A stretch of DNA of 64,000 bases from contig NC_009440.1 of assembly GCF_000016605.1 (NCBI RefSeq), forward strand, positions 2,082,001-2,146,000, read 5' to 3'. The position numbers were made by a program, and so were the translations under genes. The notes beneath the pieces are model-generated. The model saw only the letters and a program-made list of their open reading frames with translations, made no database searches and was not told the origin of the DNA. Shown here one piece after another: positions 11,876 to 30,344 of the stretch; the first letter of the stretch is position 1; each line of letters begins with the position of its first letter. This DNA is from Metallosphaera sedula DSM 5348 (lineage in GTDB: Archaea > Thermoproteota > Thermoprotei_A > Sulfolobales > Sulfolobaceae).

Positions 11876-12583
11876 ATGGTTACTGAGGAGTTATATGCAA
11901 AGGATTCGTATATAAAGAATTTTTCAGCAAAAGTAACTAAGATAGTGCCATCAGGTGTTATTCTGGATCGAACGGCCTTTCATCCCAGAGGTGGGGGACT
12001 AGAGTCTGACACGGGCGCACTCATTCTAGGGGGGAACACATACAGGGTAACGGAGGTCAAGTTTGAGGGAAATGAGATCGTTCATGTCCTTGAAAAGTTA
12101 GATGGTTTAAGAGAAGGAGACGAGGTTGAGGGCAGGATAGACTGGGAGCGAAGGTACAGGATGATGAGACTTCATACCGCGTCCCATATCATAGCATCAA
12201 TTGCGTTTTCTAAGTACAACGCCCTTATCACTGGGGGGAATATTACCCCTGAGTACGCCAAGGACGATTTCAATGTGGAGAACAAGGATTTACTTCCAAA
12301 AATAGTGGAGGAGGCAAATGAAATAGCAAAGAGGGGGATTAAGGTAAAGGTATACTTCTTACCTAGGGAGGAGGCTATGAAGATACCGGGTGTAGTTAAG
12401 CTAGCAGAGAAGATGCCACCTGAACTGGAAACCTGGAGAATTGTGGAGATTGAGGGAATAGACATACAGGCCGACGGTGGACCTCACGTAAGCAACACGG
12501 AGGAAATAGGAAGCATAGAGGTTATCAAGGTCGAGAACCGTGGTAAGGGAAAGAAAAGGCTCTACTACACCGTAAAGCCGTAG
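11876..12583 (+). CDS. alaX: AlaX-type alanyl-tRNA editing protein
   Basis: 235 residues resembling the editing domain of alanyl-tRNA synthetase. Features: DRTAFHPRGGG near residue 31-41, the zinc motif H100-TAS-H104, and DGGPHVSNTEEIG near 203. The third ligand, often Cys in CGGTH, is Asp in this copy (DGGPH), as may be a lineage variant. The enzyme hydrolyses Ser- or Gly-mischarged tRNA-Ala in trans. Downstream is the convergent aminotransferase gene. Confidence 0.87.
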   Translation: MVTEELYAKDSYIKNFSAKVTKIVPSGVILDRTAFHPRGGGLESDTGALILGGNTYRVTEVKFEGNEIVHVLEKLDGLREGDEVEGRIDWERRYRMMRLHTASHIIASIAFSKYNALITGGNITPEYAKDDFNVENKDLLPKIVEEANEIAKRGIKVKVYFLPREEAMKIPGVVKLAEKMPPELETWRIVEIEGIDIQADGGPHVSNTEEIGSIEVIKVENRGKGKKRLYYTVKP

Positions 12584-12584
12584 G

Positions 12585-13556: not shown

Positions 13557-14134
13557 CACAATCCCTTTTCGTCGAAATAGTTCACTATCACGTTCTTTTC
13601 AGCTCTCCTGATGATCTCAGATAGCGAGGATACGCTTAACTCCAGCTTCTCTGCCAGAGCCCTTATGGTGATCTTCCTAGGAAACTCGTAATAACCGGCC
13701 TCAAGCGCTATCCTAAGTATTTGTTCTTGCCTGGCCGTGAGAATATCCTCTGTCTTATACTTAGTGACCTTTATCACCTTTACGTTGATGCCATGCTCAT
13801 GAAGCTCCCGCAACAGCTTTTTCAGTTCCTGGTACCCGCTTAAGATAACAGTCCAAACAGTTGAGTTTCCGTTGATCACACCATTAACGATGATGTACTT
13901 TGACAATATCTCCTCGACTACTCCTCTTACCTTAACCGTCCCGAGGTATTTCAGTTTAGAGACCTTACTGAAGTTTCCCTGTATTTTACCTAAATCATCT
14001 ACGCCCTTCACCTCAACGAGGAGCCTCTGAAGCTCTCCCTCCTGCTTTATATCGAGAATGGTAAGGGTCCCTTTTCCCAGGTTAAGGTCTAAGGGAGGTG
14101 CTGTAGGACTGATTAAAGTGACCCTAAGAATCAC
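13556..14134 (-). CDS. HTH-10 (bacterio-opsin activator-like) regulator
   Basis: 192 residues. The C-terminal 60 residues (TARQEQILRIALEAGYYEFP, then ITIRALAEKLELSVSSLSEIIRRAE) are the archaeal HTH-10 domain. The N-terminal 120 residues look like a small ligand-sensing or ACT-like alpha/beta region. It overlaps the aminotransferase start by 1-4 bp and is thus co-transcribed, which suggests control of cobalamin or amino-acid metabolism. Confidence 0.8.
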   Translation of the reverse strand: MILRVTLISPTAPPLDLNLGKGTLTILDIKQEGELQRLLVEVKGVDDLGKIQGNFSKVSKLKYLGTVKVRGVVEEILSKYIIVNGVINGNSTVWTVILSGYQELKKLLRELHEHGINVKVIKVTKYKTEDILTARQEQILRIALEAGYYEFPRKITIRALAEKLELSVSSLSEIIRRAEKNVIVNYFDEKGL

Positions 14135-14359
14135 GAGTATACACGGATTTCATGGTTATTTAGATTTGCTTTATGATTCATGTGAAATTGTGAAGTTCCG
14201 ACAGCTAGGAGGTTAGTAAGCCTCTAGGAAATAGTAGTAGATAGAACTAGATCTAATCCCTCTCATGAACATTTAAAAAACTATAACTTAAGGAGATCGA
14301 GATAAGTTTTATATATCTTGTTGTATTATTTTCATTGCCGCGGTAGTATAGCCCGGCCA

Positions 14360-14374
14360 TGCTCTGCGCCGAGA
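14360..14374 (+). other. Probable non-canonical tRNA intron
   Basis: About 14-15 nt that do not fit the tRNA fold, between D-loop GGCCA and the 3' strand of the D stem (about position 20/21). Introns at non-canonical sites, including the D-loop of tRNA-Glu, are known from Crenarchaeota and are cut by the heterotetrameric EndA enzyme at bulge-helix-bulge sites. Exact ends are ambiguous by one or two bases from sequence alone. Confidence 0.6.
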
Positions 14375-14382
14375 GTATGCGG

Positions 14383-14425
14383 GCCTTTCGAGCCCGTGAC
14401 CCGGGTTCAAATCCCGGCCGCGGCA
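14383..14425. repeat. attL: 43-bp direct repeat within the tRNA-Glu 3' part
   Basis: Identical over 43 bp to 30065-30107. It starts in the anticodon stem at GCCTTTCGAG and runs through the last tRNA base. This is the standard attachment core for integrases that use the 3' part of a tRNA gene. The intact tRNA lies on this side. Confidence 0.92.
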
Positions 14426-14538
14426 CTAATTTTACGTCGATTTGAAAGAGAGCTACGTTCTCTTTATAAAGGCGTAAATGGAACATAGAGCCTTATTTTT
14501 GGAACAGTGTCACTTTCTAATAAGTAAGGTAGGAAAAT

Positions 14539-16187
<1,649 letters not shown>

Positions 16188-16210
<23 letters not shown>

Positions 16211-16601
16211 CTTCCTTCACCCACTGTTCCTCAATGTACTTCTTTATGGTTTCACTGGACACGTTGCCGGCTGTGGATACAAAATAACTTCTGGACCAGA
16301 GCTTTTTATACTTCCTTAGCTCTGGGAATTTCTTCAGTATTAGTCTAGCAGACTTCCCCTTGAAGTAGTTTGCTAGATATGACGGCGAGTATCTTGGCGG
16401 GCAGTTTATGAAGAGGTGTATGTGGTCTGGCATGACTTCTAAGGCTATAATCTCACATCCTAGCTCCTTTGCTATTGATTTCAAAACCTCTTTAGTGTAT
16501 TCAGCTACCTTATTAGTTAGTATAGCTATTCGATATTTGGGGATCCATACGAAGTGGTAGTTGCACAGATATTTTACGTGTCTCGTGGATTTTAGTTCCA
16601 C
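16188..16601 (-). CDS. tnpA: TnpA Y1 HUH transposase
   Basis: 137 residues, the standard size of IS200-type Y1 transposases. HUH motif at H60-I-H62 (MPDHIHLF) and the catalytic tyrosine Y122 in TIKKYIEEQ. N-terminal STRHVKYLCNYHFVWIPKYR is the family signature. Acts as a dimer that cuts and joins single-stranded DNA at subterminal hairpins. Coding frame appears intact, so this copy could be mobile. Confidence 0.95.
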
Positions 16602-16740
16602 AATACTTTAAAGTATTCCATAGTATAAAAGCTTTACCCCGCCCCTAGAAGGGGCGAGGCTTGTCGTTCATTTGTCAAATCACGTTATAAATCGAAGACT
16701 ATTATACTCGTCGAGTACATGTTACACTAAGGGTAAAGGG

Positions 16741-17427
16741 ATGTTAAATCGTGAGGTACTAGCAAACGTATGGAACGATACTATAATTTGGTATATTGAA
16801 AGGTGTAGGTATTGGGCTAGATTGGTCGATTTGATGAGAATGGAGGATAATCATGACAAGAAATTGAGTCTTCTTGATAAGGCTTACGGTCTCTGGGGTC
16901 ATATATGGCATGAGCAGGACCTCGTTATGATATTTTCTCACATTCTTTTAAAAAACCTGGAGAATACGTCCGATGTACATCTTCATATAAGCTACGAGTT
17001 GAAACCGGAGAATTTCAGTGTTATAACGAGCTTTCATGAGAGATTGAGTAAGGCAGTTACCACCCTAAGAAAGGAGCTTAATATGAAAAGAGCATGGTTT
17101 CCTGAAATGGACCTAATTGTTACCGAAGATGAGCCGCCTTTCTTTTACTGTATAGAATTTAAATATTATCATTATTTTCCGACCACTTGGAATATAGTAG
17201 AAGATCTCAAAAGGAAAGTAGTTATATTGAACACTTTGAAGAAATATGAAGTCTGTAAAGATGCCGGGATATTTCTTTTAGATGATGGAATATGTAGAAA
17301 AAATGAAGAATTATGTAACAAGATAAATGAGGTGCTCAATGAGGCGAATTCGCTAATGATACTTAGTTATTACGTAAAATATGAAGAACTTCTGAACGCT
17401 TTAGCAAAGATTTCCTCCAAATCTTAA
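16741..17427 (+). CDS. PD-(D/E)XK nuclease-like protein
   Basis: 228 residues from the ATG at 16741 (a TTG at 16672 would add 23 low-complexity residues that reach into the IS end). The central part has D124 in EMDLIV, then E139-F-K141 after a hydrophobic strand (FYCIEF), the spacing of the PD-(D/E)XK nuclease active site. The N-terminal 100 residues are helical and Trp-rich. It might be a restriction-like, resolvase-like or defence nuclease; the motif alone does not decide. It follows directly after the IS605 insertion. Confidence 0.5.
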   Translation: MLNREVLANVWNDTIIWYIERCRYWARLVDLMRMEDNHDKKLSLLDKAYGLWGHIWHEQDLVMIFSHILLKNLENTSDVHLHISYELKPENFSVITSFHERLSKAVTTLRKELNMKRAWFPEMDLIVTEDEPPFFYCIEFKYYHYFPTTWNIVEDLKRKVVILNTLKKYEVCKDAGIFLLDDGICRKNEELCNKINEVLNEANSLMILSYYVKYEELLNALAKISSKS

Positions 17428-17530
17428 GCTTAACTTCCGTTATGGACTATATACAGTAATTCAAGGAAGAAACGATGCGAAGGGGAGGAGAAAGAGAATA
17501 TCGACTACTCGGCAAAGTAAAACTTTTCTC

Positions 17531-17626
17531 TAACTGCCCTAGAGTTAAACCTCATTCTTCCTTCAACTCTAACTTGGAACTTTCCTTCAGTTCAAGGTAA
17601 ATTTAGGGCTAACTCCCGTGGAGTTA
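17531..17626. promoter_or_regulatory. Two 17-bp palindromes, operator-like
   Basis: TAACTGCCCTAGAGTTA at 17531-17547 and TAACTCCCGTGGAGTTA at 17610-17626, 79 bp apart. The second has perfect 7-bp arms (TAACTCC/GGAGTTA); the first matches in five arm positions. They lie between the nuclease-like gene and the 200-residue membrane protein gene, in 253 bp without any open frame. They suit a dimeric repressor or an iteron-type origin element. Confidence 0.45.
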
Positions 17627-17681
17627 AAAATTTCGCCGAAAAGTATTTAGCTATAGAAGAAGAGTAAAAAAGTGAAAGATT

Positions 17682-18284
17682 ATGAGGAAGTTCAACTATA
17701 ATGAAATAGTGGTACTCAACCCGCTCCAGACTAGGTACCAAATGGTGTCGTCTAGGGTTTTCGTCCCTCTCTACGCTGCGGCTAATGACGGAATTTATAG
17801 AATGAATAGGAGAAAATTTGTGACAAAGTACGGTCCAAAGACTATAGGAACGTATATGCTAGGAACTTTCGGTGTCCTCATTTTACTTATAGGTATAGGT
17901 ATAGCAGTTTATCCATTCACTCCAACTACTGGAATGACTAGTGTTGATGGTCTAATTGCTATGCTCATAGGAGGGCTTATGCTGTATTTTGCTAGAAAAA
18001 ATGCAAGCAAACTGAATCAAAGAATAAGTGAAGAAAAAGGCATGGAAGGCGAAATAGTTTTACTGTGGAGCCAAGTGAAAACGATAACTGTAATGAACGT
18101 CAGGCAGGAAAACGTAGCTAACAGACCTAGTTTAGTTCTAAATACTGTAGCCCCTACTTACAAAGAAATAGGGGATTGGCACGTATTGACAACTGACGGG
18201 AGAGATGTAACAATACCAAATGTCGACGATCCTTATAACAAACTAAATTACGTAAAAAATAGATTTGATTTAAGTTTTTTATGA
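17682..18284 (+). CDS. Element membrane protein, 200 aa, unknown
   Basis: Two adjacent TM helices (about 57-80 and 88-104) divide a basic N-terminal region from a soluble C-terminal part of about 95 residues with alternating beta pattern ending in WHVLTTDGRDVTIPNVDDP. This looks like a membrane-anchored cytoplasmic PH-like domain, but I recognise no family. Its 3' end overlaps the convergent polytopic membrane protein by 6 bp. Confidence 0.7.
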   Translation: MRKFNYNEIVVLNPLQTRYQMVSSRVFVPLYAAANDGIYRMNRRKFVTKYGPKTIGTYMLGTFGVLILLIGIGIAVYPFTPTTGMTSVDGLIAMLIGGLMLYFARKNASKLNQRISEEKGMEGEIVLLWSQVKTITVMNVRQENVANRPSLVLNTVAPTYKEIGDWHVLTTDGRDVTIPNVDDPYNKLNYVKNRFDLSFL

Positions 18285-19697
18285 AGACAATTCTCTAATT
18301 GCTCCTACCATATGTTGTCCTGGTCTCAAACTAAACACAAAAAGCACTAACGAGAACAGGAATTCTCCATCAATCGCTATAGGGTCTATGATAAACAGCA
18401 AGGCTCCGATAGGTAATGTTGCTAAGATTGCAAAAGTTATTGCGGCTACCAAACCCGCTACCATTAAGCCTATTAGCAAATCTACTACCATCATCGCAAT
18501 TTTTCTAGTCCATTCAAATATCCAGAGTGAAGCCCATAGTGGAATAGTAGATACAACAGATAACATTACAGCATATTTTATTGTTGCTACCGCTAATGTG
18601 AAAGCTAAGAGAAACATAACTAGAGATAAAAACATATCTAAAGAATCCCCAAACCCAAAGGGAACCCCGTTCATTAATGCAAATAGGGCCGTGTAGAGAG
18701 TTGCTCCTCCTGTATATTCTATCGTTGCTATTCCTAGATATGGACCTGCGACTGAGTAAATGATAGAATTAATGAAATTCGCAGCATAAGTGTATACTAT
18801 CATCCCACCTGCATAGAATAGTCCCCATACGCCGAGCTTGTAAAGGACATCACCAGCAAGATCAACGAGGTCCGAATAGAACCCTCTGAATGCGTTGTAT
18901 GCTATCGAGAAAGATACGAACAACATAGCTAGCCCGATAGCATAATCTTGGATTTCATTATATATCGTTTGAGTAATTGGAGAAATATTGGGCGTAGGGG
19001 AATAAGTCATCCATTCTAGAGGTGCTCCGAAAATCTGTAAAAGTGTAGTCAAAAATCCTTCAAATGTGTTAGCTGCAGTGTTAATAAATCCAGAGATTGC
19101 GCTCGTTATAGCCCCAGTAAGCCAGCCCAAGGGGCTAGGTGGGTTCGTTACAGTTATTAAGACTGCTCCAGACCCTCCTGCATAGTTTTGATCATTAATT
19201 ACAGCCGCAGCAATTATGTATTTTCCAGGTTCATTGAATGTATAGGTGAACGAAGTTCCGCCTGTGGAATTGTATACTATGCTCCCATTATATAATACTG
19301 TCCATATCACTGTTCCAGACATAGATGGGCTCCAGGACACTGTATAAGTTTCAGCGTTTCCAGTATAAGCCGAAGTGGGACCAGAAACTGTTACTTTCAG
19401 TTCTACTAATGTTATGTTTACGCTTCCTCCTAGTTTTCCTCCCGTAGCAGCTGCTAGAAATAACGCTGAAGCTAAAGCAGCTGCGAACAACACTAAAGCA
19501 TAACGTTGATCGTATCTGTTTGCCAAAATTGCAAGCAATAGCAGTGCTGCAGGTATCAATGTTTGTAGTGTCGAGATAAAGGTCCCTAAATTATTACTAC
19601 CGCTTCCACTTTGAGCAAATGCCACGATATTGCTTAGTCCTGAAAGTAGGCTCGGAAGTATCAATATAACTAATAGGATAGTTAGAGCTTTCCTCAT
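18279..19697 (-). CDS. Polytopic membrane protein, candidate VirB6/TrbL-like channel
   Basis: 472 residues. A cleavable-type signal (ends near FAQSGSG) and two TM helices are followed by one Ig/PKD-like external domain (residues about 97-190, with YTVSWSPSMSGTVIW and FTYTFNEPGKYIIAA), then six to eight TM helices. It is divergent from the VirB4 gene and shares a symmetric promoter with it. A polytopic protein next to VirB4 is the layout of archaeal conjugation/Ced-like DNA-transfer systems; the VirB6/TrbL/CedA assignment is inference from topology and context only. Confidence 0.7.
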   Translation of the reverse strand: MRKALTILLVILILPSLLSGLSNIVAFAQSGSGSNNLGTFISTLQTLIPAALLLLAILANRYDQRYALVLFAAALASALFLAAATGGKLGGSVNITLVELKVTVSGPTSAYTGNAETYTVSWSPSMSGTVIWTVLYNGSIVYNSTGGTSFTYTFNEPGKYIIAAAVINDQNYAGGSGAVLITVTNPPSPLGWLTGAITSAISGFINTAANTFEGFLTTLLQIFGAPLEWMTYSPTPNISPITQTIYNEIQDYAIGLAMLFVSFSIAYNAFRGFYSDLVDLAGDVLYKLGVWGLFYAGGMIVYTYAANFINSIIYSVAGPYLGIATIEYTGGATLYTALFALMNGVPFGFGDSLDMFLSLVMFLLAFTLAVATIKYAVMLSVVSTIPLWASLWIFEWTRKIAMMVVDLLIGLMVAGLVAAITFAILATLPIGALLFIIDPIAIDGEFLFSLVLFVFSLRPGQHMVGAIRELSS

Positions 19698-19715
19698 TTC
19701 CTTCGTTAGTAGAGT

Positions 19716-19725
19716 CTTTTAAAAG
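19716..19725. promoter_or_regulatory. Symmetric TATA box between membrane channel and VirB4 genes
   Basis: CTTTTAAAAG, a perfect 10-bp palindrome, lies 21-24 bp from both divergent start codons (19697 on minus, 19742 on plus). One box could serve both directions with nearly leaderless transcripts. Confidence 0.55.
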
Positions 19726-19741
19726 GCGGAATAACGAGAAC

Positions 19742-21610
19742 ATGTCTTTCTTGTTCGGAAGTAAAAATGACGGCCAAAAGACAGCACAAAAAACTAGGTA
19801 CTATCGTTTAGAAGGGATCCCATTCTTCTTACTGAGTCCTGAGGATCGTGATATGAAAATGAAAGAACTATCGACGCTCTTATCACAAGCAGAGCGTGGC
19901 TATATCTACATTAGCAGAGCTCCAGGTGAGTATGAGTTCGAAGGGACGAAATTCCCCATCATTACATCTTCTTTTAATTTAATCACAGAGAAAGAGATGG
20001 ACCTCGAAACAGCAGAGCCTCCCAAGAGACCTAAGATAAAGAAGGAACATGCTAAGTACTTGCAAACAATGGAAGGATATGCTAGAGTTTTAGTATCATA
20101 TAGATATAGTACCAGAATTTACGAGGGAGCTCTTGGAAGGGTCGACTTCAAACAGATGAACCCAGAGCTCTTTGAAACGATTATTCAGTTTCAAAAGATT
20201 CCCCAACTCTCTGTTAGAAATTATCTCAATTCGCTAGAAATGAAGAAGATGAAGATGGCCAAGTATGCTAATGTCTCAACTGCCGTTGAAGAAATGTTAA
20301 CAAGTGGAACCCAACTTAAGAAGGACATAGACGAGGAAGCTGCGGAGCCCATCAAGTTCCGATATATCTTTGTAATCCATGCAAAGACCCTACAAGAGCT
20401 CGAAAGTCTAACAAGGGAATTAATGAAGACCGCACAAGAAAACGGGGTGCTCCTCGATACTCCATGTTGCGCTCAGAGTGAGTTGTATAATTTTGAAGGA
20501 GGTGTAGGGTATCGCATAAGCAGCAACGTCAGTCTCGCTAAGTTCTACCCCCTGGTCGGGTTTAACTTAGTCGAGCCTAATGGCATCTTCTTAGGAACGG
20601 ATGAAAAAGGAGCTCCAATATCAATCAATCCATATTTGGCGACCAACGGAAGACAAAATCCTCATTGGGCGATAACAGGAACAACTGGAGCAGGAAAGAC
20701 TACTACAGGTGCCGCTTTGATTGATAGGCTACGCAGGGCCCATGGCGAGATATATGTTATTATCATCGATCCGATGAGCAACTATAACCGTTTCTTCACT
20801 AATGAAGCGGATTTGAATATCGCATTCAAGGACGGGGACTATGTTGGACTGGATCCGGTAGCTTTAGCAGCTGAAGGAGTGGTCTCAAGCGGTGACATAG
20901 CAGACTTCCTCATCGAGTCATATGGAATTCCATTGGAGCTCCGAGGAATCCTAGTGTCCCAGTTGGAGCAAAACAGGAGTTTGAAGGACCTAACAGACAA
21001 TCTAGAGAGCTTGGCTAGTAAGAAGTTTGCGACTGAATATAGAAAATTAGAGAACTTCTTACTCAATATGACTAGCGGAGCTGACAAGTATGTTTTCACT
21101 GGAACTCCTCCTAACCTTAAGGGCAAACGTTTCATCATACTAGGGCTTCAAACTGAGGATACGAGAAAGAAGAGATTAGCAGCTACAATGTTAATGCTTT
21201 ATGCCTATTCGTTAATCAATAAACTCCCTCGTTCAGTCGAGAAATTGATATTGATAGATGAAGCTCACTTCCTATTCGAATACCAGAGTGTGGCGAAAAT
21301 CATAGCGATAATTTACAGGACTGCTAGAGCCCTTAAAACCAGTATGATTACTATGACACAGCTCATTCAACATTTTAATATGAATCAATACAGCAAGGAA
21401 GCATGGCAACTTGCAGATAACAAACTGATTCTTAAACAGGAAAAGGAGGCTAAGGACGACTTAGTTAACTTGGCTCACCTGAGCGAAGAGGAGGTCGATT
21501 ACGTGCTCAAATCTTCAAGGGGTAGGGGGATATTGAGGACAGGCGCAATAACGACCCATATTCAGGTCCAGCTCACGGAAGAAGAGAAACAGCGCTGGAG
21601 GACTGAGTAA
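19742..21610 (+). CDS. VirB4/TrbE-HerA family ATPase
   Basis: 622 residues. The P-loop GTTGAGKTTTG is near residues 315-324 and Walker B is LILIDEAHFLF near 501-511, followed by MTQLIQHF, a sensor-type motif. The N-terminal 300 residues form the VirB4-type region with the YRLEGIPFFLL start. VirB4/TrbE/CedB ATPases power type IV secretion or DNA import at the membrane. It is divergent from the polytopic membrane protein and 2 bp ahead of an 85-residue gene. Length is near that of Sulfolobus conjugative-plasmid TrbE proteins. Confidence 0.87.
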   Translation: MSFLFGSKNDGQKTAQKTRYYRLEGIPFFLLSPEDRDMKMKELSTLLSQAERGYIYISRAPGEYEFEGTKFPIITSSFNLITEKEMDLETAEPPKRPKIKKEHAKYLQTMEGYARVLVSYRYSTRIYEGALGRVDFKQMNPELFETIIQFQKIPQLSVRNYLNSLEMKKMKMAKYANVSTAVEEMLTSGTQLKKDIDEEAAEPIKFRYIFVIHAKTLQELESLTRELMKTAQENGVLLDTPCCAQSELYNFEGGVGYRISSNVSLAKFYPLVGFNLVEPNGIFLGTDEKGAPISINPYLATNGRQNPHWAITGTTGAGKTTTGAALIDRLRRAHGEIYVIIIDPMSNYNRFFTNEADLNIAFKDGDYVGLDPVALAAEGVVSSGDIADFLIESYGIPLELRGILVSQLEQNRSLKDLTDNLESLASKKFATEYRKLENFLLNMTSGADKYVFTGTPPNLKGKRFIILGLQTEDTRKKRLAATMLMLYAYSLINKLPRSVEKLILIDEAHFLFEYQSVAKIIAIIYRTARALKTSMITMTQLIQHFNMNQYSKEAWQLADNKLILKQEKEAKDDLVNLAHLSEEEVDYVLKSSRGRGILRTGAITTHIQVQLTEEEKQRWRTE

Positions 21611-21612
21611 AA

Positions 21613-21870
21613 ATGAGCGTCGTAGATATTATCGAGAAAGTTGCGAAAAGAATGGGACTTCAACTGAATATTCTACCTAACGGCGTCGTAATCGTAATAA
21701 AGGACGGCATCGCTTTCGTTCAGATCTCTGTAGTAAGAGAGGTGTACTATATACGCTATTTAATAAAGAACGAGGCTTATATCTTGAGAAGGCTTAACGA
21801 AAAGACTGCAGAGCTTATACTAGATGAAAAATTAGATGAAACTAACGCTCTCAAAATCCCTGATGTTTAG
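21613..21870 (+). CDS. Small element protein, 85 aa, unknown
   Basis: Begins 2 bp after the VirB4 stop, so it is translationally coupled to it. 85 residues with a beta-rich centre (GVVIVIKDGIAFVQISVVREVYYIRYLI) and helical ends; no TM helix. It ends inside the convergent TFB-like gene (39-bp overlap). A VirB4 partner by context only. Confidence 0.65.
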   Translation: MSVVDIIEKVAKRMGLQLNILPNGVVIVIKDGIAFVQISVVREVYYIRYLIKNEAYILRRLNEKTAELILDEKLDETNALKIPDV

Positions 21871-22503
21871 CAACAAGACCGTGTTCCTCAATTCCTCAAT
21901 TTTCTCTTTTTCAAGTACCTCGTTTAGAAGTTTTTTATCATTTAAATACTTTAATAATATTTGCTTCCTCTTTTTTGCATTACCATAAGCTAAGTTATGT
22001 TTCTTCAGTAGTTCATAAACTCTTAATGCTTCCTCTTTGTTGCCCTGATATTCATAATACATGTATATAACAACAGGGTCCTCTTTCAGCATCTGTCTAA
22101 GTAACTTCTTACGTTGACGTATCGCATATCTTCCTATTCCCCTCGATTTTAGAAACTTCAAATATTCCCTCCTAACCTGCTTATTCTCTTTAGCTAGGAT
22201 ATGCTCATATATTGCTAAGTACAGGGCTGCCTCTGCTTTCCCATGTTTCTCAGTTTGGTTCAGAATTCTGTAGAACTCGTCTTTTTCCTTCCCTGTCATA
22301 ATACTGAGCAAGTAGTTCAGGACTATCTTCTTCATGTCTCTTATTTCATTCTCTTCTCTTTTCCTCGCTGAAGAGCTTACTCTCTCATAATATTGCAAGC
22401 TGCTGTAGTCAGTACTGCTATAGTTCTCAAAGTCTACTACTTCCCCCGTGCAACTGTTTACAAGAAATCCTTCATGATTAGTGATTATGGTGCACTCTTC
22501 CAT
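21832..22503 (-). CDS. Putative TFB (TFIIB)-like protein
   Basis: 223 residues. The first 25 hold two cysteines with C4-x13-C18-TGEVVDFE, reminiscent of the two-cysteine B-ribbon of the host TFB in this window (C15-x15-C31-SETGEV). Later, AEAALYLAIYEHILAK followed by a basic helix and RQRKKLLRQML resembles the order of a cyclin-fold repeat in TFB, and a weaker second helical set follows. It is much shorter than TFB (about 305 aa). The similarity is from inspection only; the alternative is an unrelated small helical protein with a zinc-less ribbon. Confidence 0.4.
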   Translation of the reverse strand: MEECTIITNHEGFLVNSCTGEVVDFENYSSTDYSSLQYYERVSSSARKREENEIRDMKKIVLNYLLSIMTGKEKDEFYRILNQTEKHGKAEAALYLAIYEHILAKENKQVRREYLKFLKSRGIGRYAIRQRKKLLRQMLKEDPVVIYMYYEYQGNKEEALRVYELLKKHNLAYGNAKKRKQILLKYLNDKKLLNEVLEKEKIEELRNTVLLLNIRDFESVSFI

Positions 22504-22516
22504 CCAGAAACAGACG

Positions 22517-22524
22517 TTTTAAAA
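22517..22524. promoter_or_regulatory. TTTTAAAA box upstream of TFB-like gene
   Basis: TTTTAAAA centred 17.5 bp before the ATG at 22503, set in GACGTTTTAAAAGCCTC. Same type of symmetric box as at 19716, 24757, 25596 and 26132. Confidence 0.45.
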
Positions 22525-22599
22525 GCCTCTAAGGATTTCCGTGGAAAAATCGGTATTACATTTAACTCCCCAGTTTACTGAGAAAAAATTCAAAATAAC

Positions 22600-24738
22600 T
22601 TAGGAAATCCATGCGGTACCGTTCCAGATAGCTATGATTTTCGTAGGCGTGCCGTATACAGTCCCAGAAGTGGCGTAGAATATGGATGGTACGTAGTTCG
22701 AATCGAAGAAGTTTAGAGTCTCTCCGAGGTATGGCAACTCTCCTCCAGACTGGTTCAGGTAGAAGTAGACTGTCCTACCGCCTACTGGACCGAAATAGAA
22801 AGAATTCCCAAAGGGAACCTTATTCCACCCTGGATACCCTAGCGCATTGTACACATCGACGAGATATGTCTCGCTGTCTCCGGTCACGTTGAAGTACACA
22901 GAGGAGTTGTATATACCGGGTATCCTAGAGACGTTGAAGAGCGATAGTTGGCCCGTTTCATATTTCAGGCTGGGCCACGCCGATAGGTTTAGTATCTGAG
23001 CAGGGACCACGCTCCAGTTCTCGTAAAAGCTCTCTAATTCTAGAAGATTATTGAAGGCGTTATATGTAGTATTGAAAGTGTACATGGTGTACTCCGCAGC
23101 TAGATCGAAGTACTCGAACTTCCAGAATTGGGTATCTGATTCGTTTATCGTGTGATTGATGAACTCGTAAAGGGAATGAGCTAAAGTCGCATTTTGCTCC
23201 AGGTAGAACCAGTCGATTGTAGCATATTTGTTATAATTCATGCTCTGATAGATCCATGAAGGTGCCTGAGTTATATTTGGAATAAGGTTGAAGTTTAGAT
23301 AGTAATCATTAATGGACTCAGTACCTCCTCCGTAGGGTATATAGAAGGACTGAGAGCCAGAGACCTCGTTAGATGTCGGAGTTATGGTTAGATTGCCAGC
23401 GTTCCATGTCCTTCCCACCGTGTAATTTGCCAGGCCGAGACTGTCATGTGTCGTTATCTTATAGGAATTCGTGAACGGGAGGGAGCTCCAGATCGTATAC
23501 CAGGGAGTTACCTGGAAATTGTTGAGGCCAGTATTGTATGAGTAGGACTTGCCAACTATCGAGGTAGAGGGGGAGGTCCCGTTGTACACCTCTATCCTGA
23601 GAGGTAGGCTCACGTTGTACTCGTACCAGGTGTCGCTCACCGTATCCGCGATGGAGTGTATCGAAGGATAGTACGTGTTTACCGTGTAAGTGTAATGGCA
23701 CTCGTGTCTCACCCAATAGCATCGAGTTATTGTTGTGTTTCCCTCGTGATAGTGATGACACACACGCGTATAGTAAACGTACACTCCCGATCCGCTGGAT
23801 ACCGAGTGTCCGGGGCTCCAGGAGAGGCCTACAGTAGCGCTCACGGTTTCAGGTACTCCAGGAGGAACTGTCACCGTGTCTGAAGCGGTGTGAGAGATCT
23901 GTCCGCTGCTGTCGTAGGAGAGCGATAGAGTTCCCTTGTATTGGTCTAGAAACGTAGTGGTTCCGTTCTGGTCCACGAAGTATCTGAAATTGTAGTTCAC
24001 TTGATCATCGTAGTATTGATAATATGTGACGTGGCCCGAACAGAAGCTCCCTGTACTATATGAGTTCACCAGTTGCTGACTAACGGATATAATAGGATCG
24101 ACCTGAGTGTTCACGTTGTAAGAGTTTATGATACTGTAATTCATACCATAGTTGAGATTATCCGAAGGCGGATAACTCCATCCCCTCTGAAAGCTATTAG
24201 GAACCTCGAAGTTTTTAGCGTACTTTACAATTATCTCAGCTTTACTATAATTCTCTGTATCGTTCTGATTAAGCGGAAACGGTTGTAAAGTAGTATTACC
24301 GTAATTGATAATGTTAACATATGCTGAAGATCCAACGCTGAGCAAAGCCCCATATGGACCTGGTGCTATTTGGCTCGCGTTCCAGGCCAATGCGTTAAGC
24401 AACAGCTGTAGCATATTACTTGATGGAGTTGAGAAGTTGAATAAGATGTAAGCTTCTGGGGAAATATTGTAGTAGGGTGCTAGAAGATTACTATAGCTTC
24501 CCCTAACGTAAGCTAAGTCTTGAATATCTGGAGCTAATGTTATTGTTTTATTGTAAATATATTTATACGGTATAGTTTCAGTGTATTGCTCGTTCTGCGT
24601 CGATGTCCCAACTTGAACAGAAGTGTTCTGCTGAGGTGTTTTTATATTTGCAAAACTTGCTACAAATGATAGAATTATTATTATCGCTATGAAGAGAACG
24701 CTAAATCTCTTTATGTCCATTCCGAAGACGTTACTCAC
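22600..24738 (-). CDS. Large Tyr/Asn/Ser-rich surface protein, 712 aa
   Basis: GTG start, then one N-terminal TM/signal anchor (about residues 13-32, LFIAIIIILSFVASFA) and a long exported body with many N-x-S/T sequons and very high Tyr content. A patch near the middle (RVCHHYHEG, RCYWVRHECHYTY) packs three Cys and five His within about 28 residues and could bind metal or make disulfides. There is no C-terminal anchor. It is the largest product of the element and probably the adhesin, pilus or particle-surface component. No family recognised. Confidence 0.75.
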   Translation of the reverse strand: MSNVFGMDIKRFSVLFIAIIIILSFVASFANIKTPQQNTSVQVGTSTQNEQYTETIPYKYIYNKTITLAPDIQDLAYVRGSYSNLLAPYYNISPEAYILFNFSTPSSNMLQLLLNALAWNASQIAPGPYGALLSVGSSAYVNIINYGNTTLQPFPLNQNDTENYSKAEIIVKYAKNFEVPNSFQRGWSYPPSDNLNYGMNYSIINSYNVNTQVDPIISVSQQLVNSYSTGSFCSGHVTYYQYYDDQVNYNFRYFVDQNGTTTFLDQYKGTLSLSYDSSGQISHTASDTVTVPPGVPETVSATVGLSWSPGHSVSSGSGVYVYYTRVCHHYHEGNTTITRCYWVRHECHYTYTVNTYYPSIHSIADTVSDTWYEYNVSLPLRIEVYNGTSPSTSIVGKSYSYNTGLNNFQVTPWYTIWSSLPFTNSYKITTHDSLGLANYTVGRTWNAGNLTITPTSNEVSGSQSFYIPYGGGTESINDYYLNFNLIPNITQAPSWIYQSMNYNKYATIDWFYLEQNATLAHSLYEFINHTINESDTQFWKFEYFDLAAEYTMYTFNTTYNAFNNLLELESFYENWSVVPAQILNLSAWPSLKYETGQLSLFNVSRIPGIYNSSVYFNVTGDSETYLVDVYNALGYPGWNKVPFGNSFYFGPVGGRTVYFYLNQSGGELPYLGETLNFFDSNYVPSIFYATSGTVYGTPTKIIAIWNGTAWIS

Positions 24739-24756
24739 TTCTTTTCCCCATCATTT

Positions 24757-24770
24757 GCTTTTTAAAAAGC
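24757..24770. promoter_or_regulatory. Symmetric TATA box between surface protein and 63-aa gene
   Basis: GCTTTTTAAAAAGC, a perfect 14-bp palindrome, centred exactly 25.5 bp from both start codons (GTG 24738 on minus, ATG 24789 on plus). This spacing is right for leaderless transcription in both directions from one box. Confidence 0.65.
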
Positions 24771-24788
24771 AGAATCTCAGGTGGAAAA

Positions 24789-24980
24789 ATGATCCCATTC
24801 GAGGTCTTAATAAAGATAATGTTATTGATTCCTTCGATAGTTTTCCTGTTCTATAGCGCAGTGTATATTCTGCTATTCGAGCTCAACGTGCAACCGAGTC
24901 TATCTAAGACATATAGAAACCTTTCAATTATTCTTATAGGAGGTGGGGCGATATTACTTTCGATATATTTGATAGTGTAG
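24789..24980 (+). CDS. 63-aa two-TM protein, pilin-like candidate
   Basis: 63 residues: TM helix 1 about 5-30, short polar loop (NVQPSLSKTYRN), TM helix 2 about 43-63. This hairpin topology and size resemble VirB2/TrbC pilins and the CedA1/TedC proteins of archaeal DNA-import pili, though there is no sequence proof. It shares the symmetric promoter with the surface protein and is followed 8 bp later by a wHTH gene. Confidence 0.6.
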   Translation: MIPFEVLIKIMLLIPSIVFLFYSAVYILLFELNVQPSLSKTYRNLSIILIGGGAILLSIYLIV

Positions 24981-24988
24981 AATCGATA

Positions 24989-25207
24989 ATGCTGACCATC
25001 CTAGCTAATGCCGACATGAAAACAGCAAGAGAAATTTCAAATGAGACCGGAATTAAGGAGGAACTCGTATATCACGTCCTGGAGGTTCTGAGACGTTTCG
25101 AGCTCGTTCAGGTAGTTGATGGAAAATATTACTCGGAGTATTCTGAAGTCGCGAAGTTACTCCTGGATTTGAAAAATCTTCCTGACGGTTATACAATAAC
25201 GAATTAG
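24989..25207 (+). CDS. Small winged-helix DNA-binding protein, 72 aa
   Basis: 72 residues forming one wHTH: MKTAREISNETGIKEELVYHVLEVLRRFELV then a short wing. Likely an element regulator. It ends with a 4-bp overlap with the convergent 126-residue gene and follows the 63-residue gene in the same direction. Confidence 0.75.
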   Translation: MLTILANADMKTAREISNETGIKEELVYHVLEVLRRFELVQVVDGKYYSEYSEVAKLLLDLKNLPDGYTITN

Positions 25208-25584
25208 TATTTCCTCAGCGCATCGAGAAGGTCCTTAAGCAGCTCAACCCCGGAATTCACCTCGTTTTCCAGTGATCTTTTGAGAGGAAGTATCCTGGTG
25301 GTCTCAAACGTGAGATGTACACCCGTATCGTCGTCTACCGTATATAGAAATACCTTAATTTTGTCCCTCAACTTATCGTTTTTCGAGTAGACCTCCCAAA
25401 TTATGTCGGTATTACTAAAGTAAACTATGGCGTTGTACTTCTTGTTAACTAGATAACTCAGGTGTCCAGTCTTCTCCAGGCTTTTAACGTCGTAGAAGAG
25501 CCTGAGGACCCCCTGGGTGAGGAAGAAGGCCCTTATCTTCCTAGGGTGGATGGGGAGTACAGTGTGGAGTTGGATGGTCTTCAT
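25204..25584 (-). CDS. Element protein, possible SRPBCC-like fold, 126 aa
   Basis: Starts at the ATG at 25584; an upstream in-frame ATG at 25611 would place the start across the TTTTTAAAAA box and is rejected. 126 residues, N-terminal strand IQLHTVLPIHPRKIRAFF, beta-rich centre and a long C-terminal helix, an order seen in START/SRPBCC ligand-binding proteins. No active site visible. Divergent from the YdjM-like gene. Confidence 0.6.
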   Translation of the reverse strand: MKTIQLHTVLPIHPRKIRAFFLTQGVLRLFYDVKSLEKTGHLSYLVNKKYNAIVYFSNTDIIWEVYSKNDKLRDKIKVFLYTVDDDTGVHLTFETTRILPLKRSLENEVNSGVELLKDLLDALRKY

Positions 25585-25595
25585 CAACTTTTGGG

Positions 25596-25605
25596 TTTTT
25601 AAAAA
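25596..25605. promoter_or_regulatory. Symmetric TATA box between the 25584 and 25618 genes
   Basis: TTTTTAAAAA centred 16.5 bp from the minus-strand ATG (25584) and 17.5 bp from the plus-strand ATG (25618). Symmetry is kept although the distance is shorter than at 24757. Confidence 0.5.
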
Positions 25606-25617
25606 GCGCATCTGCCG

Positions 25618-26142
25618 ATGAGACTGGTCACCCATTACGTCTTCACTATGGGGTTGCTTTCCCTGATTATGAGTATGTTCACACCTTACTACTTGGTTTT
25701 GTCTGGAGTGGTAGCAATTGCAGGGAACTTGATCATAGACGGGCTGGGGCACAAGGAGGTACAAACCAGGAGAGGTATTACAATACCTACAAGGACTCCG
25801 TTGACTCACACCTATCCCCGTTCAGTGGTGTGGGGCTTCCTGCCCGTGATACCCTTCCTAGCCTTTGGGTTCATGTACGGGGACTTCCCGTGGTGGCTCC
25901 TCCTAGCAGGCGTCCTAGTGGGTCCTTCTCACATGTTCTTAGATATGTTCACTGAGGCAGGGGTATACGTGAGAAGGAGAGGGAAGTGGAGGAGGTACGC
26001 TTTAGCTCACTTCAGGTATAACAACCCTCTAGCTAACGGGGTGGCTATCCTCCTGGGGTTCCTCATGTTGGTCCTTTCCCTGCATGGAAGCTATCATTAT
26101 TATCATCATTATGAGTATCATGATTACGACTGGCCTTTTTAA
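25618..26142 (+). CDS. DUF1286/YdjM-like membrane protein
   Basis: 174 residues, four TM helices, with conserved polar positions HYVF near the start, LIIDGLGHKE (about 39-48), THTYPRSVVWG and LVGPSHMFLDMFTEAGV. This is the pattern of the YdjM-type membrane-bound hydrolase relatives found in Sulfolobales plasmids and viruses (DUF1286 from memory). His and Asp residues on the membrane face could bind a metal. C-terminus is His/Tyr rich (YHYYHHYEYHDYDW). The 3' end lies inside the next palindromic box. Confidence 0.7.
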   Translation: MRLVTHYVFTMGLLSLIMSMFTPYYLVLSGVVAIAGNLIIDGLGHKEVQTRRGITIPTRTPLTHTYPRSVVWGFLPVIPFLAFGFMYGDFPWWLLLAGVLVGPSHMFLDMFTEAGVYVRRRGKWRRYALAHFRYNNPLANGVAILLGFLMLVLSLHGSYHYYHHYEYHDYDWPF

Positions 26143-26148
26143 AAGGCC
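26132..26148. promoter_or_regulatory. Palindromic TATA box before the small ATPase gene
   Basis: GGCCTTTTTAAAAGGCC (17 bp, arms of eight bases around a central T) overlaps the end of the YdjM-like gene and is centred 29 bp before the TTG start at 26169, a normal distance for a leaderless start. GAGGTGA at 26156 also lies before the start. Confidence 0.5.
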
Positions 26149-26168
26149 ATAGTTTGAGGTGAAGTGAT

Positions 26169-26915
26169 TTGGAACCAATCGTAATTGGTAAAAACGAAGA
26201 TGAGAATCCAGTTTTTTTAGATCTTGAAAGACATGCCATCTTAATGGGAGAGACTGGAGTCGGAAAAACGATAGCATTAAAAACAATCGTAAAAAAGGCA
26301 CAAAATAAAGCGAAAATAATAATCGATGCTGACGGCGATATAATCAAAGAAAACGGCAATAAATACCCAGTCGTAACGATGACGGAAGAAGAATTAGAAA
26401 GTCTAAATGAAAAATTGAAAAAGGCGTATATAGAAGGCAATGTTCCAGACCTGGAGGAAAAGGTAGGAAAGCTGAACGGCATAATTTTAGTAGATGCTTC
26501 GACGGAAGGGAGAGGATTTACGTTCTCTGAGAAGCTAATAGAACTCTGGACAAAATGGGTTATAGAATACGCTTTCTGGAATAAAATCAGAGGAATATTA
26601 TTGGCAATAGATACAGTCAGATATATCGATAATAAAGGTGATTTAGAAGAAATGGTCATGGCTAGGAAGGCTGGAGTTAATGTAGTTTTAACAACGAGAG
26701 AGTTTGAAGTGTTTAAAGAAATACACATTGACTTCGGGACTAACATACTAATGAGAACAGACAATAGGGCTTATCGTTACGTGGCTGATTATTTCCACGA
26801 ATTCAAAAATACATTACCTAATATATTATCAGAATTGAAACCTAGAGAAGCTGTAGTCGTTAAACTGCAGCAGAGAGAATATGAGTATGTGAAGGTTGAT
26901 AAGGAGGAGTTATAA
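26169..26915 (+). CDS. Small FtsK/HerA-VirD4-like P-loop ATPase
   Basis: 248 residues with Walker A GETGVGKT (27-34) and Walker B GIILVDAS (about 105-112), the compact core seen in HerA/FtsK and virus packaging ATPases. There is no extra domain and no TM helix. In the element it may be the coupling ATPase (VirD4/TraG role) or a packaging motor. TTG start; it ends with a 1-bp overlap with the next gene. Confidence 0.7.
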   Translation: MEPIVIGKNEDENPVFLDLERHAILMGETGVGKTIALKTIVKKAQNKAKIIIDADGDIIKENGNKYPVVTMTEEELESLNEKLKKAYIEGNVPDLEEKVGKLNGIILVDASTEGRGFTFSEKLIELWTKWVIEYAFWNKIRGILLAIDTVRYIDNKGDLEEMVMARKAGVNVVLTTREFEVFKEIHIDFGTNILMRTDNRAYRYVADYFHEFKNTLPNILSELKPREAVVVKLQQREYEYVKVDKEEL

Positions 26916-27214
26916 TGGAGCCCTTCTATTTCAAATCGTATAACAAAGTAATAGGAGTCGCTCATGATGTAAAAGAATTGGAAAAAGAGATAGAAAGACT
27001 GTCTAAAGAGGATCCTGCCGCACTTCAATACCACTTGAAAGAAGGACATATAGTATCCTGGCTGAATTACCTGGGTGAAAACGGTCTTGCAGAGATGCTG
27101 AAAGGAGTAACTGAACCCGAAGAGGCTTTAGCGAGGATAAAGGAGTACGAGGTGCTGAAGAATTCAGCACAACCAATTAAAACTAAGGCAAAAAGATCTA
27201 GAAGAAAGAAATAG
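26915..27214 (+). CDS. 99-aa element protein, DUF5752-like
   Basis: The centre (PAALQYHLKEGHIVSWLNYL, then LAEMLKGVTEPEEALARI) resembles a short archaeal domain with the pattern YHxxxGHxxxWL followed by ELAxxLxG, which I recall as DUF5752. The C-terminus is strongly basic (KTKAKRSRRKK) and may bind nucleic acid. Overlaps the ATPase gene (ATAATG), so the two are coupled. Confidence 0.6.
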   Translation: MEPFYFKSYNKVIGVAHDVKELEKEIERLSKEDPAALQYHLKEGHIVSWLNYLGENGLAEMLKGVTEPEEALARIKEYEVLKNSAQPIKTKAKRSRRKK

Positions 27215-27288
27215 CAGAACTATTATTCCTAATGCGATATTAAACTAAAAGAGAAAGATTTTTAAATATACATTCTATTTCTTTTATT

Positions 27289-27477
27289 GTGTTTTGCAAG
27301 AAGTGGGAGATAAAGTTCATGATGAGGAAAGTTAAGGAAGCTAGAGATTTAGCTAAATTCGTTGCTAGAGAATTTTCTAATTTAGAATATTTGATGCTAA
27401 TTGTTGATAAACTAGAATTGTTAAAAGAAGACCCCGTTATAGGGGGCGGGCATGAGGTAATATCATGGAAGTGCTAA
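27289..27477 (+). CDS. 62-aa element protein, perhaps truncated by IS256 insertion
   Basis: GTG start 25 bp after a good TATA box (ATTTTTAAATATA). Helical sequence KVKEARDLAKFVAREFSNLEYLMLIVDKLELLKED looks native, but the last dozen codons run into the G/C-rich IS256 region, so the true C-terminus may be lost. Function unknown. Confidence 0.5.
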   Translation: MFCKKWEIKFMMRKVKEARDLAKFVAREFSNLEYLMLIVDKLELLKEDPVIGGGHEVISWKC

Positions 27478-28529
27478 CTGTTAACGAGGTAACCCTCTAC
27501 GTCCCAATAAGGGAGCTCGTAGAGGGACCTGGGAAGATATCCCTCACGCTCGTCCCCAAGATATTACCCGATGACGCGTTAAACAAATCGGTCCGGGAGA
27601 TCGAGAGGATGGCCTTGGAGGCTGAGAGGGTGAGTCCCAACTACGAGAGGGATAAGGAGGTGAGGAGGAAGGGTTACACGAGATATAGGTTCCTGAAGGG
27701 GTTCAAGATCGTGATGGACGGGAGGGAGACTAGGTACGAGTTGGAGTGGATCTCGGTGAAGCTGCCGGTGCTTTACGGGAAAGGGAGGGTGAGGACGCAG
27801 GTCTAGGAGGCATTGCCGAGGGAGGAGAGGAAGGTCTTCGCGTCCTTGATGCTGATCTACTCGGTTAAGGGAGGTAAGTTGAACGCTAAGCTCTGGATGC
27901 CCGAGATTGAAACGGGCGGCGACTTCAAGTACGTGATAGTTGACGGGAAGTACGTGAAGCTCAAGAGGCGAAAGGCAGTGCTCTTGGTTATTGGCGTGAC
28001 CCAGGAAGGAAACAGGGCGGTCCTCGAGGTCATCATGAGCGAGGCTGAGGACGCAATCTATTGGAGTCTCCTGGTCAGGGTCTGGAAGAAGACGAGCTTC
28101 GTCCTGGTCGTGGCTGACGGGATTAAGGCTTTGGATAAGGCGATCTCCCTCGCTGAACTTCGCGTGGAAAGGCAGGGCTGCCTGGTCCACCTCAAGCGTC
28201 GCGCGACCAAGGAGGAAAGGGAGGCTTTAGACGCGATCACCTCGTCAGCGGAGCTCGGAAAGATCAAGCCAGAGACCAACCCAACCCTTCTAAGCTACCT
28301 CATCGCCGACAAGAAGCTCTGGAAATGGCTCAAGTCCAACAACCTGGTCGAGTCCTTCAACTCCCTCCTGGAGAGGAGGAGGTTCGGGTTGTTTCACTCT
28401 CCCTGGAGGATACTCCAGATCGCGCGGGCAATAGCCCTCTACTACAACCTATTAACCTGTTTTCTCGTTACTGTAATAATATTACAGTCTCCTTCATCAC
28501 TCTCACTTTCATCGAAATATACCCAATAA
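27465..28529 (+). pseudogene. IS256-family (Mutator) transposase broken by an in-frame TAG
   Basis: Two frames in the same phase, 27465-27806 and 27813-28529, are separated by one TAG at 27804. The DDE catalytic residues are in the second part: D in VIVDGKYVKL, D in VVADGIKAL, and E in NNLVESFNSLLERRR. Base composition is far richer in G/C than its neighbours, which shows recent arrival from another genome. The C-terminus reads past the usual end into AT-rich element DNA (after about 28455), so the IS right end may also be damaged. Terminal inverted repeats were not found. Confidence 0.8.
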
Positions 28530-28662
28530 TTTATACATTGGATAAATGTAATTCAGAGCTCGAAAATACAATTCGCAATTGACTCCTGAGCCGCCCTAAT
28601 CCTGCCTGGATCCCCGATTTTTTCGTAGAAAGAGCTGGCTCTTGCGATAATGACGACAAACC

Positions 28663-28740
28663 TAACACTTTGTTAATCCTGATATACCCGGGTCAGGAAG
28701 CCAATTTTTGAGTCCTTCAATGGAGGTAACACTTTGTTAA
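28663..28740. promoter_or_regulatory. Twin TAACACTTTGTTAA operators before the HTH/DUF4145 pair
   Basis: Identical 14-bp copies at 28663-28676 and 28727-28740, 64 bp apart. Each contains the palindrome TAACA-CTT-TGTTA. The second ends 9 bp before a TATA-like TTTAATAA (about 28752) that is 28 bp ahead of the ATG at 28784. This fits autoregulation by the HTH protein. Confidence 0.55.
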
Positions 28741-28783
28741 GCCTAGTTAAGGTTTAATAAGGAGAAATTTCCAATACAATTTT

Positions 28784-29035
28784 ATGGAGAGCAAGATTGA
28801 GAAACACAAGAAACGCTTCACAATCACACAGATCGTTTTGATGGTAATGGCAAAAGCCCCGGGGAGTTGCTGCAGTTTGGAGTATCTCAGTGAGAAAACG
28901 TCTGTAGACAAGGACGAGTTGTTGGTCTATCTATCCAGGTTGGCACAGAGGGGGATAATAGAGAGGAAGTGGCATAAGGGAAGGGCAGGGAAAGAGAGGA
29001 TGTATTGCTTAAAGTATAAGGATGAGTTGTTATGA
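28784..29035 (+). CDS. Winged-helix regulator, 83 aa, of HTH/DUF4145 pair
   Basis: 83 residues with a wHTH: SLEYLSEKTSVDKDELLVYLSRLAQRGIIERKWHKGRAGKE, ending in a short wing. The TGA overlaps the ATG of the next gene (ATGA). With the two operators upstream it is the likely autoregulator or antitoxin of the pair. Confidence 0.75.
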   Translation: MESKIEKHKKRFTITQIVLMVMAKAPGSCCSLEYLSEKTSVDKDELLVYLSRLAQRGIIERKWHKGRAGKERMYCLKYKDELL

Positions 29036-29910
29036 GTGCATACAAGAATCCACTGCAAATTGACATCATGCGAGTTTCTAGTGGAGCAAGAGGTTTCCTT
29101 ATCTCTTTAGCTTTCAAAAACACGGATCGACGCAACAGTATTGAGATATGGTTTCCTATAGATGGATATCTTGACCTACAAAGAAACGAGAAAAATGGAT
29201 ATATAAGGAATGAGTACGTTTGCAGGATTTTAGAAACCAACTCTAATATCAAAAAGATAGAATTAGACGATTATCTCTTAGCACCGAACCAGATCAAATA
29301 CAGTACTTTCCTTTGTAATGTTGAACCTCATATTGTCCATAGGCTGTATAATTATACTAATAACATCAATATGAACAATATCACCTTTAATTTAAGGCTC
29401 CTCTTCAGTGCTTTAATCAACGCAGGTACACCTTATCAAAAAACGAAGAAAGTGATGTCATCTATTCCTTTTAGCTTTAAAAAGAATGCACTTAGAGGTT
29501 TTATTAATCAATGGTATACGTCTTATATGGAAGCTGAAAATCTACCCGGTAATATTCCTTCCGATATAGCTGATAACTATTTCGAAGCAGTTAGGAGCTT
29601 TAATGCTAATGCGTATAGAGCATCTGTAGTAATGGCTAGGAGAACCTTAGAATTAGCATTGCTTAGAAAAGGATTAATAAAAGAAAAAGAGGCTATAGCA
29701 AGTTTTATACAAGGTGAAAAGGAAAAGAAAAAGTCTTCTGAGCAAAGGGTACTTAGTGATAAAGTGTTTGATCTATTAAATGCTATTAGGGTGTTCGGTA
29801 ATTATGGAGCACATGTGTCTGATGACATGCTGAATGATATAACTGAAGAAGATGCAATACTAACAATAGTAATCTCAAAGAAGGCCCTAAGTGAGCTATT
29901 CAGTAAATAA
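29032..29910 (+). CDS. DUF4145-domain protein
   Basis: 292 residues. The N-terminal 130 residues are unassigned (beta-rich). The C-terminal 110 residues fit DUF4145: DNYFEAVRSFNANAYRASVVMARRTLELALLRKG, then VFDLLNAIRVFGNYGAH. DUF4145 is often fused to, or located near, restriction and other defence proteins. The GNYGAH end recalls the His of HEPN-like folds, but the Arg-His spacing is not the classical RNase motif. Overlap with the wHTH gene suggests a two-gene module. Confidence 0.72.
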   Translation: MSAYKNPLQIDIMRVSSGARGFLISLAFKNTDRRNSIEIWFPIDGYLDLQRNEKNGYIRNEYVCRILETNSNIKKIELDDYLLAPNQIKYSTFLCNVEPHIVHRLYNYTNNINMNNITFNLRLLFSALINAGTPYQKTKKVMSSIPFSFKKNALRGFINQWYTSYMEAENLPGNIPSDIADNYFEAVRSFNANAYRASVVMARRTLELALLRKGLIKEKEAIASFIQGEKEKKKSSEQRVLSDKVFDLLNAIRVFGNYGAHVSDDMLNDITEEDAILTIVISKKALSELFSK

Positions 29911-30344
29911 TAGTATCTATTGCGTAAACCGGGGAGTTAACTTGAAACGCCTAACGTATTCTACTACTTCACTATTCTACTTTTCTTTTATAGTTTGATT
30001 CTATTTCTGCTTCTACGTGCAACATAAAACGATTCTGATAGTCGTTTCATTGAAACAGTAACTAGCCTTTCGAGCCCGTGACCCGGGTTCAAATCCCGGC
30101 CGCGGCATTGATTTTATTTCTGGATCTATAAGACTTACAACCTCTTACGAAATTCAGAGTTTGGAATAAAGTTCATAGGTTAGACGGACTTCTCGCTATT
30201 AGGCCTTTACTGTTCTGGAGAATTAAATAGATATATTTCTCTTGATAGAATTTGCTCATGTCCAGTGTTTCTTCTTTTTTAAAATATAAATCTCCAAAGC
30301 AAGTAAACCTTAAAAAGGTTCAAAATGAGTAAAACGTGATTGAT
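29911..30344. other. Gene-free right junction of the element
   Basis: This AT-rich stretch of about 430 bp holds no convincing gene. It contains the element end and attR (30065-30107), and then the host promoter region of the ABC importer with several TATA-like runs (for example TTTTTTAAAATATAAA near 30280). No remnant of an integrase C-terminal domain is visible left of attR. Confidence 0.7.
30065..30107. repeat. attR: second copy of the 43-bp repeat
   Basis: Exact copy of 14383-14425, the tRNA-Glu part from the anticodon stem to the discriminator base. The 5' half of the tRNA is absent, so this is not a functional tRNA. It marks the right boundary of the integrated element. Confidence 0.92.

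Follow-up and report, generated by a model that had tools for sequence, protein, structure and literature searches.

Conjugative plasmids of the Sulfolobales have long been known as a family, and the genes of the locus described here are among those that the pTC paper, with its annotation of 2015 (PMC4390865), assigns to section A of Sulfolobus conjugative plasmids, where TrbE is ORF621, a 9-TM protein is ORF458, a 2-TM protein is ORF161, a small TM protein is ORF62, and ORF297/144/124 correspond to the family of the 712-aa exported protein that we describe below. tRNA genes often harbour such plasmids, in intact as well as degenerate form (PMC4390879), and transfer of pM164, a related integrated plasmid, requires TraG (PMC9899855). 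In a 2025 review, only VirB4 and VirD4 are listed as proteins of Sulfolobus conjugative plasmids with recognised T4SS homology. A pMGB1-like remnant with a GC content of 41.5% was named ICEmse in 2021 in the genome of Metallosphaera sedula DSM 5348 (PMC7962313). The DNA-exchange systems Ced (Sulfolobales) and Ted (Thermoproteales) follow a related logic, with a VirB4-type ATPase and a CedA/VirB6-like channel.

Our analysis covered a window of 64,000 nucleotides from the M. sedula DSM 5348 chromosome, and we observe that it contains an integrated element of 15.7 kb (positions 14383-30116, GC 41.6%), flanked by a 52-bp direct repeat of the tRNA-Ser 3′ half that is identical at 50 of 52 positions. 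The boundaries of the element, and the genes next to them, are as follows.

14337..14426, + strand: tRNA-Ser(CGA), the integration target (ARAGORN)
14383..14434: attL, 52-bp direct repeat including the tRNA-Ser 3′ half, 50/52 identical to attR
14539..14889, + strand: truncated integrase, the first 116 of 419 aa, 100% identical to the N-terminus of the pMGB1 tyrosine recombinase
14886..16678, − strand: IS200/IS605 element at the deletion junction (TnpA 16188-16601, TnpB 14903-16210), 97.5% identical to pMGB1 25482-27274
16672..17427, + strand: 251-aa protein with no family match, in the position of the resolvase-like gene of pAH1 and pYN01
26915..27214, + strand: 99-aa plasmid protein, 76% identical in pAH1 and 78% in pKEF9
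28784..29035, + strand: PlrA-like plasmid regulator, 83-89% identical to those of pYN01 and pBEU9E1
29032..29910, + strand: DUF4145 protein (PF13643, 1.3e-16), with a pMGB1 homologue
30065..30116: attR, 52-bp direct repeat, 50/52 identical to attL

The att sites at 14383 and 30116, the truncated integrase and the IS605 insertion were all missed by an earlier, sequence-only reading of this DNA, which had proposed a candidate minimal archaeal DNA-transfer machine. Of the pNOB8-type arrangement of a tyrosine integrase with a tRNA att site, both att sites are present, with their equivalent in pMGB1 (attP) at 22927-22978, and the integrase gene, which starts at 14539, runs for 116 of 419 residues as in pMGB1 before the IS200/IS605 element interrupts it, so that 303 of 419 residues are missing; they did not turn up at any other place in the genome. 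The 251-aa protein at 16672-17427 looks by eye like a possible nuclease. Between these two ends lies the transfer module.

17682..18284, + strand: two-TM protein (TM scan), 200 aa, pTC ORF161 family; 98% identical to pMGB1, 85% to pYN01, 52% to pARN4
18279..19697, − strand: multi-TM protein with an Ig/PKD-like domain, 472 aa, pTC ORF458 family; 97% identical to pMGB1
19742..21610, + strand: VirB4/TrbE ATPase, 622 aa; 98.9% identical to pMGB1, ~82% to pAH1, pARN3, pARN4 and pYN01, 57% to pTC ‘TraC’
21613..21870, + strand: section A protein, 85 aa, pTC ORF99c family; 98% identical to pMGB1, 62% to pAH1
21832..22503, − strand: 223-aa protein, pTC ORF213 family, annotated as TFIIB-like
22600..24738, − strand: exported surface protein, 712 aa, Tyr- and sequon-rich by composition; 99% identical to pMGB1, with an identity profile described below
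24789..24980, + strand: two-TM hairpin protein, 63 aa, pTC ORF62 family; 60-66% identical in plasmids
24989..25207, + strand: TrmB-like HTH regulator (PF01978, 5.6e-7), conserved in plasmids
25207..25584, − strand: conserved 126-aa plasmid protein, 62% identical
25618..26142, + strand: DUF1286 membrane protein (PF06939, 2.4e-43), conserved in plasmids
26169..26915, + strand: TraG/HerA-type P-loop ATPase, 248 aa (TrwB_AAD_bind, 3.6e-6); 25% identical to the ATPase region of pARN3 TraG

Every gene that the sequence-only reading had named is an open reading frame at its place in this list, and most of what it had said of the individual proteins is borne out. The 622-aa protein is a VirB4/HerA-type ATPase (DUF87 at 3.6e-8 and TraG P-loop at 8.6e-7 in Pfam, VirB4/TraC models to 3e-21 in NCBIfam), and its gene (19742-21610, +) is divergent from that of the multi-TM protein (18279-19697, −), whose external domain, predicted as Ig-like, matches PKD/CARDB domains in Foldseek (E 9e-6) at about residues 100-186. 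The 63-aa protein is a two-TM helical hairpin, as had been predicted, both by TM scan and in an AlphaFold model with a pLDDT of 93; the 712-aa protein carries the expected N-terminal TM/signal stretch, with 10.0% Tyr and 27 N-glycosylation sequons; and the small ATPase, which had been called FtsK/VirD4-like, is a P-loop protein of 248 aa with TrwB/HerA similarity.

The closest relative of the module is pMGB1 (NC_021914, from an S. solfataricus P2 culture, Monument Geyser Basin). Positions 17498-24749 form a gap-free alignment with pMGB1 7252-1, at 99.5% identity over 7252 bp and 35 differing positions, and pMGB1 has the same attP and the same IS200/IS605 element. Six genes of the region are 97-99% identical to pMGB1 proteins, and the gene set is therefore not a chance assembly. 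All the genes in 17682-24738 also have orthologues, in the same order, in pAH1, pARN3, pARN4 and pYN01, and most have them in pTC too, with the VirB4 proteins of these five plasmids 57-82% identical; a related transfer region, near-complete, is present in the Sulfolobus MAG contig L085. Thus the VirB4/TrbE ATPase is found here together with the section A gene order that marks Sulfolobales conjugative plasmids (pNOB8-like, pARN/pAH1 branch). Unlike pMGB1, the element carries the segment 24778-28634 with the 63-aa, HTH, 126-aa and DUF1286 genes, which occur in pAH1, pARN and pYN01. Ced and Ted, in contrast, are chromosomal, have no plasmid att or integrase, and are recognised by a VirB4-type ATPase unlinked to any mobile element, whereas the locus described here lies inside an att-bounded plasmid copy and its VirB4 is a plasmid TrbE-type ATPase.

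The comparison with intact plasmids also demonstrated what the element has lost. Unlike the integrated copy, pMGB1 has TraG, the remaining section A genes, a full integrase and section C, and pAH1, pARN3, pARN4, pYN01 and pTC are complete circular plasmids with TraG. The pMGB1 region 7253-22475 (about 15.2 kb) is absent from the M. sedula genome except for short fragments; it encodes TraG/VirD4 (1029 aa), proteins of 192 aa (with a weak PrgI match, 0.024), 115 aa (two-TM), 182 aa and 132 aa, the origin region and section C. A full TraG/VirD4 of ~1000 aa, which the sequence-only reading had rightly not seen, is missing from the window and from the genome, where the single match covers a short part of a different ATPase. 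Likewise, the DNA for the 115-, 132-, 182- and 192-aa section A membrane proteins is absent from the genome, and the proteins are absent from the window, so that at least five more section A genes, which stand in the same cluster in the relatives, are deleted here. Also lost are the origin region and the genes of section C for replication and copy number; one PlrA-like gene is left.

We conclude that the region is almost certainly a defective integrated copy of a Sulfolobales conjugative plasmid of the pMGB1/pAH1/pARN type. From its likeness to pMGB1 and the GC content (41.6%, against the published 41.5%), we infer that 14383-30116 is the element named ICEmse; as a novel find the element does not hold, since the plasmid family is long known and the integrated copy most likely already has a name. 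In the order of events that we consider probable, the plasmid would have entered tRNA-Ser by means of its own tyrosine recombinase, and the integrated copy would then have lost about 15 kb in a deletion that ends at the IS200/IS605 insertion within the integrase gene. This deletion would have carried away TraG/VirD4 along with the genes of four more membrane proteins, the origin region and the replication genes of section C. Because these transfer genes are missing, and because TraG is essential in pM164, the element is most likely inert by itself, with no autonomous transfer or excision.

The part of the intact plasmid that survives here would belong to a reduced T4SS, in which VirB4 would drive assembly or transport through a VirB6/CedA-like channel formed by the 472-aa protein, DNA would be coupled by TraG, and recipient cells would be contacted by the 712-aa exported protein. 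Profile searches gave no direct VirB6/TrbL match for the 472-aa protein, and its AlphaFold model, built from three usable sequences in the alignment, has a mean pLDDT of 47, with a poor TM part and the Ig/PKD-like domain (pLDDT 75-83) as its usable portion. However, the 472-aa family is homologous to proteins of 617-734 aa in pKEF9, pNOB8, pHVE14, pSOG1 and pB12E5 (hhalign probability 99.8%, E 4e-29), and the N-terminus of the 617-aa protein of pNOB8 and pKEF9 is similar to a 106-aa protein that these plasmids also encode (E about 1e-7), with the comparison of the two families by profile not significant (probability 18%). Because of the T4SS-pilin likeness of this N-terminus, we favour a VirB6/CedA-like identity for the 472-aa protein and regard it as a probable channel; a channel-pilin relation of the same kind was reported for CedA and CedA1 (PMC9905601). 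These profile and sequence matches suggest that a VirB6/CedA-like channel family is present in both plasmid branches, as the 472-aa proteins in one and the 617-734-aa proteins in the other.

The differences from pMGB1 show an unusual pattern. Across the six shared genes (17682-24738) we count 33 nonsynonymous and 0 synonymous changes, where 8.5 synonymous changes would be expected at random (P about 0.0005), these being small numbers from two compared sequences. For the transposase genes that the element carries, the same comparison with pMGB1 gives 20 synonymous and 22 nonsynonymous differences. Polarised by relatives, 12 of the 33 changes look derived in the window and 10 in pMGB1, with 11 undecided, so that both lineages changed, and 13 of the 33 amino-acid changes fall in the 472-aa protein. 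It is conceivable, but on balance doubtful, that strong positive selection acted on the transfer proteins of this plasmid family at about the time it moved between Metallosphaera and Saccharolobus hosts, with the 472-aa protein and its partners helping to decide host range or carriage cost.

The same pattern bears on whether the remnant is dead, since six retained genes that are intact, and differences from pMGB1 that all change amino acids, are not expected from passive decay. The VirB4, channel and surface protein might thus be kept in use, together with host factors, e.g., a chromosomal Ced system, or with the TraG and integrase of a co-resident plasmid, and might still move DNA or alter mating. 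The six open reading frames, the 33:0 ratio of changes and the nearly intact att repeats would all fit such a use, and the host encodes CedD, so that a Ced system is probably present. Nevertheless, we consider continued use improbable: TraG and the 115-, 132-, 182- and 192-aa section A proteins are gone, and the near-identity to pMGB1 suggests a recent arrival, in which case intact frames are expected without selection.

Far less of the original proposal survives where it described a compact T4SS, self-sufficient with a channel, VirB4, a 63-aa pilin, a surface protein and a small VirD4-like ATPase. The locus does encode archaeal conjugation machinery, in which a VirB4 is joined by a surface protein and a membrane protein that is probably CedA/VirB6-like, and the hairpin form of the 63-aa protein also speaks for the proposal. 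A complete system, though, is refuted by comparison with intact plasmids, in which the conserved section A cluster contains the five or more genes deleted here, and we consider this proposal highly improbable. For the 248-aa ATPase, none of the related plasmids had a counterpart, and a survey of the plasmid collection and of 147 genomes from the order gave no second copy.

The 63-aa protein, which had been proposed as VirB2/CedA1-like, matches the T4SS pilins (VirB2/CedA1/TedC) neither by profile nor by fold, and its distribution also argues against this role. Relatives with 60-66% identity are present in pAH1, pARN3/4, pYN01, pBEU9E1, pB12E5, pSOG1, pKEF9 and pHVE14, and searches of the conjugative plasmids pNOB8, pING1 and pMGB1 gave no match. 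Because it is absent from pNOB8 and pING1, and because pKEF9 carries it next to a T4SS-pilin-like (PF18895-like) protein of 106 aa, the hairpin is probably not the pilin. The adjoining 106-aa protein is the better candidate, with a Pfam T4SS_pilin match of 6.6e-4 that lies below the family cut-off, and we propose it as a pilin candidate for the Sulfolobus conjugative plasmids of the pNOB8/pKEF9/pING1/pHVE14 branch. In pKEF9 (5553-5873), pNOB8, pING1 and pHVE14, the match to the N-terminal end of the 617-aa channel candidate lies in the C-terminal two-helix part of this protein. Two proteins of the intact plasmids, of 115 and 132 aa, were also tried as pilins and gave no PDB match and no useful Pfam match.

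A provirus, in which VirB4 would serve for packaging and the 712-aa protein would sit on the virion surface, has a negligible probability and is refuted by the near-identity to a plasmid. Weak PHROG ATPase matches (including a terminase model at 3.1e-6) speak for it, but there are no IMG/VR relatives and no phage records with VirB4 or the 712-aa protein apart from one partial ATPase match; a virus structural set, which the sequence-only reading had named as evidence that would tell against it, was looked for and gave no matches.

The transfer module is therefore a known system that is broken, and not a new minimal machine: the candidate minimal archaeal conjugation machine is settled as a broken copy of a known plasmid, for which the missing parts are now listed. 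The putative channel family and the 106-aa pilin candidate provide a lead on T4SS parts of Sulfolobus plasmids beyond VirB4 and VirD4.

Two further genes of the module show variation among plasmids. Examination of 25207-25584 as an invertible segment revealed no convincing inverted repeats on its flanks; the 126-aa gene that it carries runs opposite to the genes around it in this element, as it does in pKEF9 and pSOG1. In pARN3, pARN4 and others it points the same way as its neighbours, among them the HTH gene in pARN3 and pARN4. In the 712-aa surface protein both ends are conserved and the centre (about residues 201-350) varies, with identities that are mostly 16-45%, a mosaic, adhesin-like pattern; the final ~150 residues of the protein are identical to those encoded on the Sulfolobus MAG contig.
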